Assembly: GCF_900128485.1 (NCBI RefSeq)
Contig: NZ_LT635861.1
Span: 553,792-617,791, forward strand
Reading direction: 5' to 3'
Source: Duodenibacillus massiliensis
Lineage (GTDB): Bacteria > Pseudomonadota > Gammaproteobacteria > Burkholderiales > Burkholderiaceae_F
DNA: 64,000 nucleotides
Shown: positions 9,794 to 62,818 of the stretch, piece after piece
Numbering within the stretch: the stretch's first letter is position 1
How the letters are laid out: every line of letters starts with the position of its first letter
Program-made: the position numbers and the translations under genes
The notes under the pieces: generated by a model
Told to the model about the DNA's origin: nothing
The model's input: the letters and a program-made list of their open reading frames with translations, nothing else
Database searches by the model: none

Positions 9794-9878
9794 GCGGTCG
9801 TGGCGAAATTGGTAGACGCGCAGCCTTGAGGTGGCTGTGCCGAGAGGCATGAGAGTTCGAGTCTCTCCGACCGCACCA
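9794..9878 (+). tRNA. tRNA-Leu (anticodon GAG), copy 1
   Basis: The class II tRNA has acceptor GCGGTCG/CGACCGC, anticodon stem CAGCC/GGCTG with loop TTGAGGT (anticodon GAG, reading CUC/CUU), a long variable arm and TTCGAGT in the T arm. CCA is encoded at 9876-9878. Confidence 0.95.
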
Positions 9879-9885
9879 AACGTAC

Positions 9886-9963
9886 TGGGGTATCGCCAAG
9901 TCCGGTTAAGGCAGCGGATTCTGAATCCGCCATTCGTAGGTTCGAATCCTACTACCCCTGCCA
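9886..9963 (+). tRNA. tRNA-Gln (anticodon CUG), copy 1
   Basis: The anticodon loop TTCTGAA gives anticodon CUG, reading CAG. The body (TGGGGTATCGCCAAG..., T loop TTCGAAT) matches tRNA-Gln. CCA is encoded. The first acceptor pair is U1 with U72 (9886 and 9959) instead of the usual U-A. The other six acceptor pairs are normal. Confidence 0.93.
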
Positions 9964-10003
9964 AACGTACCAAGGTGCGGCACTTGTTCAGAGATAAAAA
10001 TTT

Positions 10004-10088
10004 GCGGTCGTGGCGAAATTGGTAGACGCGCAGCCTTGAGGTGGCTGTGCCGAGAGGCATGAGAGTTCGAGTCTCTCCGACCGCACCA
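10004..10088 (+). tRNA. tRNA-Leu (anticodon GAG), copy 2
   Basis: This copy is identical base for base to the tRNA at 9794-9878, exactly 210 bases downstream, with encoded CCA at 10086-10088. Confidence 0.95.
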
Positions 10089-10095
10089 AACGTAC

Positions 10096-10173
10096 TGGGG
10101 TATCGCCAAGTCCGGTTAAGGCAGCGGATTCTGAATCCGCCATTCGTAGGTTCGAATCCTACTACCCCTGCCA
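10096..10173 (+). tRNA. tRNA-Gln (anticodon CUG), copy 2
   Basis: This copy is identical to the tRNA at 9886-9963, including the U1/U72 mismatch and encoded CCA. The same 7-base spacer separates it from its tRNA-Leu. Confidence 0.93.
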
Positions 10174-59384: not shown

Positions 59385-60191
59385 TTAAGCGCTGACGCCT
59401 CTCCAGAAGAGCTCACATCCTAAAAGAACCATAACGGCCGACAGAAGGATCACAATCCAGGACGGGCGGATTTTCTTTGCAATCTTGGCGCCGAACTGTG
59501 CGCCGACAAAAGCGCCGCACCCCACCGCAACGGCTGCGGTCCAGACAATGTGACCGAGCATTGCATGGCTGGCAACACCGATCACGGAACTCACCATCAG
59601 CACAAAGGTGGAGGTTGCCACGGCAATCTGCGCCGGGAATCCGAGGATAAAGACCATTATCGGTACGTGCACGACGCCCCCGCCGATACCCAAAATCGAC
59701 GAGATAAAGCCCACAAAGAAGGAAAGCGTGATGCCGATAGTGTAGGAAAACTCGGCATGCGCGACGTCAAAGTCTTCCACGCGGGCCGTGGCGCGCCTGC
59801 TGCGGCTTTTTAAAAACATGAAGATGCCGAGCGCGGCAAGCGACACGCCGAAAGTTATTGAAAAGCCGGGGCCCGAGAAGTATTCGGTGACATAGCTCCC
59901 CAAAAAGGCGCCCGGGATCGTGGCCGCTGCAAAGGGCAGGGCCGCACGAAACATCACGCGCTTTTGGCGGATGTAGGCGATGGTGCCTGAGACCGAATTG
60001 AGAAATACGCCGAAAAGGCTCGTGCCGATCACCTGCTGCACGGTCTGAAAGGTCGTGCCGTTCGGGGTCATCATCGTGAGCATGAAAAGCGGCACCATGA
60101 TGAGGCCGCCGCCGATGCCCAGAAGCGCCCCCACAAGCCCCACGCCGATACCGACGCAGAAAAGTTCTGCAAAGGAAAGAAGTTCAGTCAT
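59385..60191 (-). CDS. TauE/SafE-family permease
   Basis: The 268-residue protein has eight predicted helices in two repeats, each with the glycine-rich family motif: GLVGALLGIGGGLIMVPLF near residue 18 and GFISSILGIGGGVVHVPIM near residue 160. Members export sulfite, sulfoacetate or other organic anions; the substrate is not evident. A good minus-strand promoter lies about 205 bases upstream. Confidence 0.9.
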   Translation of the reverse strand: MTELLSFAELFCVGIGVGLVGALLGIGGGLIMVPLFMLTMMTPNGTTFQTVQQVIGTSLFGVFLNSVSGTIAYIRQKRVMFRAALPFAAATIPGAFLGSYVTEYFSGPGFSITFGVSLAALGIFMFLKSRSRRATARVEDFDVAHAEFSYTIGITLSFFVGFISSILGIGGGVVHVPIMVFILGFPAQIAVATSTFVLMVSSVIGVASHAMLGHIVWTAAVAVGCGAFVGAQFGAKIAKKIRPSWIVILLSAVMVLLGCELFWRGVSA

Positions 60192-60396
60192 GATTCAAAC
60201 CACCCGGAAAATCGGGCAAGGCCGCAATTTTAGAAAAACCGGGACAAAAAAACGCCCGACGGCACACACGTGCAATCGGGCTGAAAATGCGAAACGCTTC
60301 AATGCGCGCTTTGGAAGAGGGAGAACTTCGAAAACGGCCCCTCGGGAGCGTTCCGCACAGGGAGATTCGGATCGGCTACCGCTCGATCCGCTACGA

Positions 60397-60424
60397 ACTA
60401 TATCAATTGCCTAGGTAATATCAA
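60397..60424 (-). promoter_or_regulatory. promoter of the TauE/SafE gene
   Basis: On the minus strand TTGATA (60424-60419), a 16-base spacer and TATAGT (60402-60397). It would give a leader of about 195 bases to the permease gene, with no other gene in between. Confidence 0.5.
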
Positions 60425-60555
60425 ATAGGTGTATTCACCTAGACGCCGGGTCAGGCACTGAAACCCGCTCTGAGAGGGCGTTTGAGGGCTCAAAGGGAAA
60501 ACCCCTGTGGCGTTTAGGGTACCGGCGGAAAGCCTCATGCTCCACCTCAAACGCC
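60411..60555 (+). ncRNA. structured non-coding region of unknown function
   Basis: The outer stem GGCGTTTGAGG (60477-60487) / CCTCAAACGCC (60545-60555) is a perfect 11-bp pair enclosing 57 bases that include GGCT/AGCC and AGGG-AAAA-CCC(C). To its left are TAGGTG-TATT-CACCTA (60426-60441) and CGGGT/ACCCG (60447-60467). ACGCC (60443-60447) can pair with GGCGT of the outer stem, giving an alternative fold. A promoter-like TTGCCT, 17 bases, TGTATT overlaps the left end. No reading frame explains this conservation of pairing. Confidence 0.45.
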
Positions 60556-60611
60556 TGATTTTACGGATAGTTTTTAATTTAAATTCTACTATTGGTAGTG
60601 GGGCTTTAAGA

Positions 60612-60640
60612 TTGACACCACAAGCACTGGCCGTTATTGT
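60612..60640 (+). promoter_or_regulatory. promoter of the nrdD operon
   Basis: A perfect TTGACA (60612-60617), a 17-base spacer and TATTGT (60635-60640). Transcription would start near 60647, about 147 bases before nrdD. Confidence 0.65.
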
Positions 60641-60659
60641 CCTGAGAACCAAAGTGATG

Positions 60660-60750
60660 CCGCAGGACTTACCGGCCTGCGGTCCGTTTTTTCCCGACAG
60701 AGCCTTATGACCGGGGCGCGGGTAATGCCCGTGCCGTCCGTTGCGGCTCT
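60660..60750 (+). promoter_or_regulatory. structured nrdD leader with a terminator-like hairpin
   Basis: CCGCAGG/CCTGCGG (60660-60682) is followed by TCCG and TTTTTT, a Rho-independent terminator shape beginning about 13 bases after the predicted transcript start. Next, AGAGCC (60699-60704) pairs with GGCTCT (60745-60750), enclosing GGCGCGGG/CCCGTGCC (60715-60735). The layout is that of an attenuated or riboswitch-like leader; the signal is unknown. Confidence 0.5.
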
Positions 60751-60793
60751 TTATTGCCGGGGAAACACTAAAAGAATAAAGAGGAGTTCACTT

Positions 60794-62818
60794 ATGTCCA
60801 TCATGCCCGAACATCTGGTCAAACGCGACGGCAGCGTCAAACCTTTTGACGCCGCCAAAATTACGGCGGCTATTGCCAAAGCCGGCAAGGCGACCGGTGA
60901 GTTCGGGGAAAAGCGTGCGCAGGAAATGTGCGAAACGCTCGTGATTCCCAAGATCAAGTCCTTAAACCTTGTGACGCCCAACATTGAGCAGGTGCAGGAC
61001 GCGGTTGAACACGCCCTTTTTGACTCAGGGTACTTCGCCACACTCAGGGCCTACATCGTTTACCGCGAACAGCGCGCCAAGAGCCGTGACGCCAAAAAAA
61101 GCTGGGTCAATGTGGAAAGTTCCATCAACGAGTACCTCGATCAGCTCGACTGGCGCGTCAACGCCAACGCTAACCAGGGCTACAGTCTGGGCGGCCTCAT
61201 TCTCAACGTGTCCGGCAAGGTCGTCGCCAACTACTGGCTCAACTACATCTACACGCCTGAAATCGGTGCCGCGCACCGCAATGCCGACATTCACATTCAT
61301 GACCTTGACATGCTCTCGGGTTACTGCGCGGGCTGGTCGCTGCGCACGGTGCTCACCGAAGGCTTTAACGGTGTGCCGGGCAAGGTTGAAGCCGGGGCAC
61401 CCAAGCACCTTTCCTCAGCCACCGGTCAGATCGTGAATTTTTTGGGCACGATGCAGAACGAATGGGCGGGCGCTCAGGCCTTCTCGTCCTTTGACACCTA
61501 CATGGCGCCTTACATCCGGAAGGATCATCTGCCGTACCATGAAGTGCTGCAGTGCATTCAGGAGTTGATCTACAACCTCAATGTCCCGAGCCGCTGGGGT
61601 ACGCAGACGCCCTTTACAAACCTCACCTTTGATTGGACGTGTCCTGAGGACTTAAAGCATCAGCACCCGGTGATCGGCGGCGAAGAGCAGCCCTTTACCT
61701 ACGGGGAACTGCAGGCCGAAATGGACATGATCAACCGCGCCTACATCGAAGTCATGATGAAGGGCGACGCGAAGGGCCGTGTCTTTACGTTCCCGATTCC
61801 GACCTACAACATGACGCCGGACTTTGACTGGGACAGCCCCAATGCCCTGCGCCTCTTTGACATGACGGCGCGCTACGGGCTGCCGTACTTCCAGAACTTC
61901 ATCAATTCGGAACTTAAGCCCAACATGATCCGCTCGATGTGCTGCCGTCTGCAGCTCGATTTGCGGGAACTCTTAAAGCGCGGCAACGGCCTCTTTGGCT
62001 CGGCCGAGCAGACGGGCTCTTTGGGTGTGGTGACAGTCAATTGCGCGCGCCTCGGGTACCTCTATAAGGGCAACGAAGAAGAGCTCTACAAGCGTCTTGA
62101 TCATCTCCTCGATCTTGCCAAGCAGTCCCTGGAAATCAAGCGTAAGGTCATTCAGCGCCACATCGATCAGGGGCTTTTCCCGTACACGAAGCGCTATCTC
62201 GGCACACTCAGAAACCACTTCTCCACGATCGGTGTGAACGGCATCAACGAGATGATCCGCAATTTCACCGGCGACACCGACGACATCACAACCGACTGGG
62301 GCCACGCCTTTGCGGTGCGGTTCCTGGATCACGTGCGTGAAAGGCTCGTGCAGTTTCAGGCCGAAACCGACCACATGTATAACCTTGAGGCAACGCCCGC
62401 GGAAGGCACAACGTACCGCTTCGCGAAGGAAGACAAAAAGCGTTTCCCCAATATTCTGCAGGCGGGAACGCCCAAGAATCCCTACTACACCAACTCTTCG
62501 CAGCTGCCGGTGGGCTTCACCGACGACCCCTTCCAGGCGCTTGAGATGCAGGAAGATCTGCAGAAGAAGTACACGGGCGGCACGGTGCTGCACCTGTACA
62601 TGAACGAGGCGATCAGTTCGGCTGAGGCCTGCCGGGATCTCGTGAGAAGAACGCTCACGCGGTTTCGTCTGCCTTATATCACGATCACGCCCACGTTCTC
62701 GATCTGCCCCAAGCACGGCTACATCCCGGGACGGCACGATTTCTGCCCGATCTGCGACGCTGAGCTCATTGCCAAAAAGCGTGCGGCGCTTGCGGCCAAG
62801 GAAAAGGCGGCCGCGTAA
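60794..62818 (+). CDS. nrdD: anaerobic ribonucleoside-triphosphate reductase, catalytic part lacking the glycyl-radical segment
   Basis: The 674-residue class III reductase has an ATP-cone (about residues 5-95, LVKRDGSVKPFDAAKITAAI), then the ten-stranded barrel with active-site cysteines MCCRLQLD (Cys383-Cys384). Near the C-terminus TFSICPKHGYIPGRHDFCPI gives zinc-site cysteines 638, 651 and 654. The chain then ends in a Lys/Ala tail (AKKRAALAAKEKAAA) and TAA. The usual RVxGY glycyl-radical segment is absent and is encoded separately at 62888. The start at 60794 has AGAGGAGTTCACTT upstream; longer in-frame starts cover the leader hairpins. The protein makes dNTPs under anaerobiosis. Confidence 0.93.
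   Translation: MSIMPEHLVKRDGSVKPFDAAKITAAIAKAGKATGEFGEKRAQEMCETLVIPKIKSLNLVTPNIEQVQDAVEHALFDSGYFATLRAYIVYREQRAKSRDAKKSWVNVESSINEYLDQLDWRVNANANQGYSLGGLILNVSGKVVANYWLNYIYTPEIGAAHRNADIHIHDLDMLSGYCAGWSLRTVLTEGFNGVPGKVEAGAPKHLSSATGQIVNFLGTMQNEWAGAQAFSSFDTYMAPYIRKDHLPYHEVLQCIQELIYNLNVPSRWGTQTPFTNLTFDWTCPEDLKHQHPVIGGEEQPFTYGELQAEMDMINRAYIEVMMKGDAKGRVFTFPIPTYNMTPDFDWDSPNALRLFDMTARYGLPYFQNFINSELKPNMIRSMCCRLQLDLRELLKRGNGLFGSAEQTGSLGVVTVNCARLGYLYKGNEEELYKRLDHLLDLAKQSLEIKRKVIQRHIDQGLFPYTKRYLGTLRNHFSTIGVNGINEMIRNFTGDTDDITTDWGHAFAVRFLDHVRERLVQFQAETDHMYNLEATPAEGTTYRFAKEDKKRFPNILQAGTPKNPYYTNSSQLPVGFTDDPFQALEMQEDLQKKYTGGTVLHLYMNEAISSAEACRDLVRRTLTRFRLPYITITPTFSICPKHGYIPGRHDFCPICDAELIAKKRAALAAKEKAAA

Follow-up and report, generated by a model that had tools for sequence, protein, structure and literature searches.

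What does the palindrome-rich DNA between the TauE and nrdD genes of Duodenibacillus massiliensis do? Duodenibacillus is placed in the Sutterellaceae (Burkholderiales), and the genome studied here measures 2.35 Mb. We analysed a stretch of 64,000 nucleotides of it (contig C22, 553792-617791; hereafter the window), in which the initial annotation had singled out positions 60411-60555 as densely structured and possibly a small RNA or an old mobile palindromic element. The segment is indeed intergenic, as had been stated, lying between TauE (60191-59385, minus strand) and nrdD (start 60794, plus strand). The suggestion of a small RNA proved right in kind, as the intergenic region holds a predicted small RNA gene, but not in place or strand: the gene lies on the minus strand at ~60391-60246, and not within 60435-60580.

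A predicted small RNA gene on the minus strand

The small RNA gene at ~60391 to 60246 is a well-supported prediction that combines a promoter, a three-helix fold and a terminator. Its parts, and the gene on its other side, are the following:

60397-60424, minus strand: promoter-like TTGATA-16-TATAGT with a TG preceding the second hexamer (consensus match only)
60246-60391, minus strand: predicted small RNA of ~146 nt, AUG-free, with its 5' end taken from the -10 word and its 3' end from the T run
60368-60390, minus strand: 5' hairpin of the predicted fold
60359-60364, minus strand: first CUCCCU motif, left unpaired by the predicted fold; invariant in six genus members
60347-60358, minus strand: 5' arm of helix P1, pairing with 60287-60298
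60338-60344, minus strand: CGAGGGG core
60304-60338, minus strand: predicted hairpin P2, whose loop carries the second CUCCCU (60323-60318)
60287-60298, minus strand: 3' arm of helix P1, pairing with 60347-60358 and supported by covariation
60246-60281, minus strand: intrinsic terminator from sequence and fold, with stem 60281-60275/60260-60254 and seven T at 60252-60246
60794-62818, plus strand: nrdD, anaerobic ribonucleoside-triphosphate reductase (Pfam PF13597, E 8e-174), transcribed away from the RNA

The RNA gene thus has a promoter and an intrinsic terminator of its own, both as consensus matches. Compared with shuffled versions of itself, the predicted RNA (60391-60246) has a much more stable fold (z -5.05, with 0/200 shuffles as good), as have the RNAs of two relatives (z -4.25 and -4.43); with a separate shuffle set, six members of the RNA family gave z values from -4.8 to -2.03.

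Conservation and covariation of the RNA

A covariance model (R1) built from the alignment of six genus members (A2) gave matches at 14 of a further 26 nrdD loci. A second model (R2) was made from a structure-fitted alignment of 21 sequences (A3), which omits G058, found later with R2, and L026, L038 and L039, where R1 had no match. R2 found the RNA in 22 of 67 genomes of the family at E <= 6.5e-10; the next match stood at 3.7e-5, and the weak matches between 3.7e-5 and 0.05 were excluded from the 22. The strong matches fall into the genus of the window (7/10 genomes) and two further groups, g14 (5/5) and g16 (10/12). Among nrdD-bearing genomes, 20 of 40 carry a strong match and 20 do not, including G001 and G004 of the window's own genus. 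A search of 300 genomes of the order with R2 gave matches in 31 at E <= 0.1, of which the five strong ones (E <= 1.2e-20) all belong to the same family; the rest begin at 5.7e-5, and no strong match was found outside the family. We scanned 20 of the weak order-level loci (L058-L077) with Rfam: two contain RF02278, two have tRNAs overlapping the match and in one a tRNA lies at another point of the locus, while the remaining 15 had no Rfam match at cut-off.

The initial annotation had proposed conserved pairing in relatives as a test. Pairing is kept in the minus-strand RNA by compensatory changes; the flagged segment 60411-60555 has no DNA match in the nine other genus genomes at E <= 0.001. 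In A2, which was not fitted to the structure, 94.3% of the cells pair, two-sided changes occur in 6 of the 41 pairs versus 1.5 in shuffles, and the covariation score is 0.210 versus 0.139 in shuffles and at most 0.072 in slid versions; on one of five measures, further pair types, A2 was no better than shuffles, 51/500 of which reach the observed value. P1 is the best supported helix of the RNA, with 12/12 pairs intact across the six sequences and 4 of them changed on both sides. P2 is nearly invariant in this alignment (12 of 13 pairs without variation), and the terminator helix is 81% paired with no two-sided changes. In A3, which is fitted to the model and so biased towards structure, P2 varies with compensation, 35 of the 41 pairs show two-sided changes and the score is 0.636 versus 0.209. 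From eight unfitted g16 sequences (a set omitting L032 of G053, and G058) all of P1, P2 and the terminator emerged, and two-sided changes affected 17 of the 34 predicted pairs; the five g14 sequences, also unfitted, yielded P1 but not P2. Covariation supports a conserved structure, except that the unfitted alignment of all 21 sequences recovered only 11 pairs, in the core and the terminator, and neither P1 nor P2. The most conserved element of the RNA is CGAGGGG, found in 21/21 sequences even in an unfitted alignment (A4), and the 3' ends of the 21 aligned sequences are T-rich. A3 also holds 95 G-U cells versus 16 A-C cells, an excess that favours the minus strand as the RNA, in an alignment that was itself fitted to the minus strand.

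Comparison with known RNA families

At Rfam gathering thresholds the window contains five tRNAs only and no match at the predicted RNA. Four tRNAs of the window stand in two pairs, 9794-9875 with 9886-9960 and 10004-10085 with 10096-10170, of equal spacing and scores; the region 9794-10170 looks like a tandem duplication.

Could the RNA be distantly related to the anti-hemB RNA of Burkholderia (RF02837), having moved beside nrdD? The RF02837 model aligns over its full length to the 3' part of six genus RNAs at 17.7-30.3 bits, below its cut-off, and true RF02837 members occur in genera of the family that lack the nrdD RNA: 8 of 67 family genomes score over the cut-off, none of them in g1, g14 or g16. 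Common to both RNAs are hairpins, a loop with CUCCCU and a terminator of the intrinsic type; for the RNA of this family in B. cenocepacia, ncS04, a length of 105 nt is reported, with Hfq binding cited from earlier work (PMC5688073). Against such kinship, the window scores 17.7 bits and five relatives 24.1-30.3, where the gathering score is 49.5; seven loci of g14, g16 and G002 have no RF02837 match at E <= 1; the CUCCCU of the P2 loop, on which the likeness is based, is not family-wide; five of 14 unrelated control genomes likewise give the model sub-threshold matches; and another place in the same genome scores better, at 24.9 bits. Unlike the nrdD-divergent RNA, moreover, the RF02837 consensus has no P1/CGAGGGG core. 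With sub-threshold scores in the six genus members and nothing in the seven further loci, we rejected membership in RF02837, and consider a distant kinship quite unlikely. On the contig of the window, a little outside it, G000:C22:497939-498029 gives a sub-threshold RF02837 match of 24.9 bits.

CU-rich unpaired stretches are shared with RF02278, the double-hairpin RNAs described as Betaproteobacteria toxic small RNA, in which such stretches were proposed to cover ribosome-binding sites (PMC5688073). Two true RF02278 members were weakly matched by R2. That family, unlike the RNA described here, lacks P1, being a short double hairpin whose model has 64 positions, and its gathering score was not reached in the window. 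The GacA-controlled small RNAs RsmY, RsmZ and CsrB have a conserved dyad upstream of their promoter and repeated GGA loops in the RNA. The present gene resembles them in layout only, with a small RNA promoter and a conserved upstream dyad (see below), and differs in the half-site sequence and in carrying CUCCCU instead of repeated GGA loops. Because RF02837 stays below its cut-off and no Rfam family reaches one, we filed the RNA as a new family of putative trans-acting small RNAs.

At seven places of the family (G037:C28, G041:C34, G019:C8, G065:C217, G027:C277, G029:C303 and G030:C1:158501), weak R2 and sub-threshold RF02837 matches coincide; these perhaps represent another class of CU-rich small RNAs.

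Genomic neighbours of the RNA

Of the 22 genomes with a strong match, 20 have the RNA divergent from nrdD. The remaining two are G009 and G047, in which we found no nrdD; the G009 contig ends nearby, and the G047 RNA has the same left-hand neighbour as its g14 relatives. On the downstream side the neighbours differ. TauE follows here; in G002, G005, G007 and G009 the RNA is followed by the end of a convergent RNase G-like gene (named from C-terminal resemblance to the window's gene, the only one whose domain was checked); and the g14 loci and L053 have other genes.

This variation bears on whether the RNA is a cis-acting leader of TauE, that is, a riboswitch or attenuator with the terminator as its switch. 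TauE (60191-59385) shares the strand and starts 55 nt downstream, and a structured RNA with an invariant core ahead of a terminator resembles a leader. Such a leader should be followed immediately by a conserved gene of its own strand, however, and the RNA loci have none in common: in four genomes a convergent gene end follows the RNA, and elsewhere other genes do. We therefore rejected the leader, which we regard as very unlikely. As the RNA is not tied to any downstream gene, a stand-alone RNA is the best reading.

The nrdD side has structures of its own. The nrdD leader (60647-60790) contains G+C-rich, hairpin-like stretches, and a 31-base piece of it (60750-60780) matches a G002 contig other than the one bearing the G002 nrdD. 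By eye, L017 and L024 (group g2) carry upstream of nrdD, on the nrdD strand, a stretch rich in hairpins that contains the word GCTCCTC and a run of T resembling a terminator; it may be another small RNA in the equivalent position.

The palindromic segment consists of a candidate control region and a spacer

Next to the RNA gene, the following features were assigned to the flagged region and its surroundings:

60411-60442, no strand assigned: operator-like element CTAGGTAATATCAAATAGGTGTATTCACCTAG (plus-strand reading), with the dyad TAGGT-N6-ACCTA (60426-60441) and a third half-site, ACCTA
60443-60600, no strand assigned: unconserved single-copy spacer with the 11-bp inverted repeat 60477-60487/60545-60555, judged from the lack of relatives' matches and from folding
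60612-60640, plus strand: promoter-like site towards nrdD, TTGACA-17-TATTGT (consensus match only)

The palindromes are genuine. The perfect 11-bp stem previously described is there, with arms of 11 nt (60477-60487 and 60545-60555) that are 100% complementary and 57 nt apart, and so are the mutually exclusive pairings, since 60509-60520 can pair with 60544-60555 over 12 nt at 83%. An intergenic region of 602 nt seldom holds a perfect 11-bp inverted repeat by chance: at least one such pair (loop of 3-100 nt) arose in 22/2000 dinucleotide shuffles, and the whole window has 11 such pairs versus 0, 1, 1, 2 and 0 in five shuffles. The description as dense RNA-like structure holds for the palindromes but less for the folding, which exceeds that of shuffles only moderately and varies with the bounds chosen: for 60411-60580, z was -2.12 on the plus strand (8/200 shuffles equally good) and -2.80 on the minus strand (2/200), and with slightly shifted bounds (L050) -1.51 and -0.99. 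The promoter-like words reported on both strands were upheld on one, the minus-strand site 60424-60397 overlapping the left end of the segment; the plus-strand site of our promoter scan (60612-60640) lies outside it, and the scan thus does not support the claim for both strands.

That 60443-60580 is a small RNA in its own right, or a structured piece of the nrdD upstream region, we consider highly improbable. The inverted repeats and the z values of -2.1 to -2.8 at the original bounds are in its favour, but none of the nine other genus genomes has a DNA match to 60411-60555 (60190-60800 searched against ten genomes, E <= 0.001), and equivalent 170-nt segments of 18 loci showed no consistent folding excess (z -3.16 to +0.99 on the plus strand, -2.62 to +2.26 on the minus strand). 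An RNA inside 60435-60580 was rejected on these two grounds. In the same search of the ten genus genomes, own included, five others matched only inside 60286-60364, at 84-93% identity, and one other solely at 60750-60780. The terminator-like sites of the scan lie elsewhere too, apart from a weak minus-strand one (60441-60426), which is the operator dyad itself.

A REP-type or other old mobile palindromic element, for which the palindromes and the intergenic position speak, is barely credible and was rejected, since it requires several scattered copies and the proposed search of the genome found, apart from a 24-nt match at E 0.264, one copy of 60380-60620 and no REP-type scatter, and since relatives keep a similar distance between RNA and nrdD. 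From RNA start to nrdD start this is 398 bases here and 278-493 across loci (18 of 19 measured; the nrdD start of L036, in G062, was not located, and L048 and L053, with no nrdD in the locus, were left out), so that nothing seems to have been inserted.

Judged from the sequence, the flagged segment instead looks like the promoter and operator of the neighbouring RNA gene (60397-60442) followed by an unconserved spacer. The case illustrates that conspicuous palindromes may belong to the control DNA of an adjacent RNA gene.

An operator-like element before the RNA promoter

The left hairpin noticed at the outset is the element at 60411-60442, directly before the RNA promoter, which looks like a candidate operator, or activator site, for this gene. 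In an upstream alignment of nine chosen loci, not all of them (A5, including L053 of G047), the RNA is preceded in two genera by one common arrangement: TAGGTG, ACCTA, another ACCTA 14 bases farther along and a -10-like word. With a looser pattern the dyad was found ahead of the RNA in 14 of 21 loci, versus 18 of 490 control stretches, and was missing from the other 7; as the pattern was composed after viewing the sequences, the 14/21 is descriptive. The strict dyad is present at three places in the genome (the reversed control at 0). Besides the one at the RNA gene, two adjoin genes that by eye are zinc-ABC-transporter-like and integrase-like, and no regulon could be drawn from them. At L083 1501-1755 (G000:C18 from 48642), TAGGTAGTTTTACCTA stands beside the zinc-ABC-transporter-like genes and is followed by a long TAG/TTG microsatellite; the integrase-like frame lies ~7 kb farther along the same contig.

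Related dyads are also found where the RNA is missing. Six of nine RNA-less nrdD upstream regions examined carry a TAGGT- or AGGG-type dyad, five of them AGGGAAA(A/T)CCCT; the same dyads occur in 5/226 control stretches, which at 125 versus 700 bases corresponds to roughly 12% expected per region. The measurement covered ten of twelve loci, leaving aside G059 and G060. These dyads hint at a shared regulator, as a lead and not a result. In the RNA-less genomes of L014, L018, L019, L024 and L027, the AGGGAAA(A/T)CCCT dyad lies 218-308 bases ahead of the nrdD start motif, and in L014 it adjoins an NrdR-box-like word.

Proposed function of the RNA

The predicted gene, its strand, structure, conservation and operator are supported by computation; its transcription, Hfq binding, mode of base pairing and targets are inferred. 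Our reading, to which we assign a probability of about 0.75, is a stand-alone non-coding small RNA of the minus strand, with its own promoter and terminator, controlled at the operator and acting in trans with Hfq through its CUCCCU motifs. The gene would be transcribed from a sigma-70-type promoter and ended by the intrinsic terminator, and a DNA-binding protein reading TAGGT-N6-ACCTA and the third ACCTA (60411-60442) probably controls its transcription. The RNA would fold into the 5' hairpin, P1 enclosing the CGAGGGG core and hairpin P2, and the terminator, and the exposed CUCCCU motifs may pair, with Hfq, to AGGGAG-type ribosome-binding sites, so lowering translation.

This base-pairing mode, taken alone, is tentative, with odds slightly short of even. 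The predicted fold leaves both CUCCCU motifs (60364-60359 and 60323-60318) unpaired, hfq was detected in 9 of 10 genus genomes, own included, and for CU-rich RNAs of Burkholderia cenocepacia PMC5688073 proposes, from target prediction, that they cover ribosome-binding sites. The target pattern CACAGGGAG-N(2-10)-ATG occurs at 14 places in ten genomes versus 3 for the reversed control. Three of these, in the genome of the window, stand before frames judged by eye to be dapA-like, ammonium-transporter-like and threonine-synthase-like; another of the 14 coincides with the G006 RNA gene. Across the ten genomes no target gene is conserved in more than two, and a single 103-aa frame recurs, in two. 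The first CUCCCU is present in the five g14 sequences; in nine g16 sequences CUCCCU is absent from the modelled part, and five of these have, by eye, a CUCCUU-type stretch farther upstream. As CGAGGGG is the most conserved element and CUCCCU is missing from the modelled part in g16, there is room for a protein-binding or sensing role. An extended reading, in which the CGAGGGG junction would be a sensing or protein-binding core and the RNA would be co-controlled with nrdD by one regulator that reads TAGGT- or AGGG-type dyads, is in our view unlikely.

Small RNAs of gut Sutterellaceae seem little studied. Among the papers listed in literature searches that lay outside most subscription journals, and in passages of PMC5688073 and PMC3521395, none was relevant to small RNAs of Sutterella, Sutterellaceae or Duodenibacillus, and the nrdD-divergent RNA was not described. 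The gain for this family of bacteria is an RNA family supported by covariation, with a steady neighbour, a defined candidate operator and an invariant core. Were the co-control with nrdD true, the RNA would link oxygen-free DNA-precursor synthesis to post-transcriptional control.
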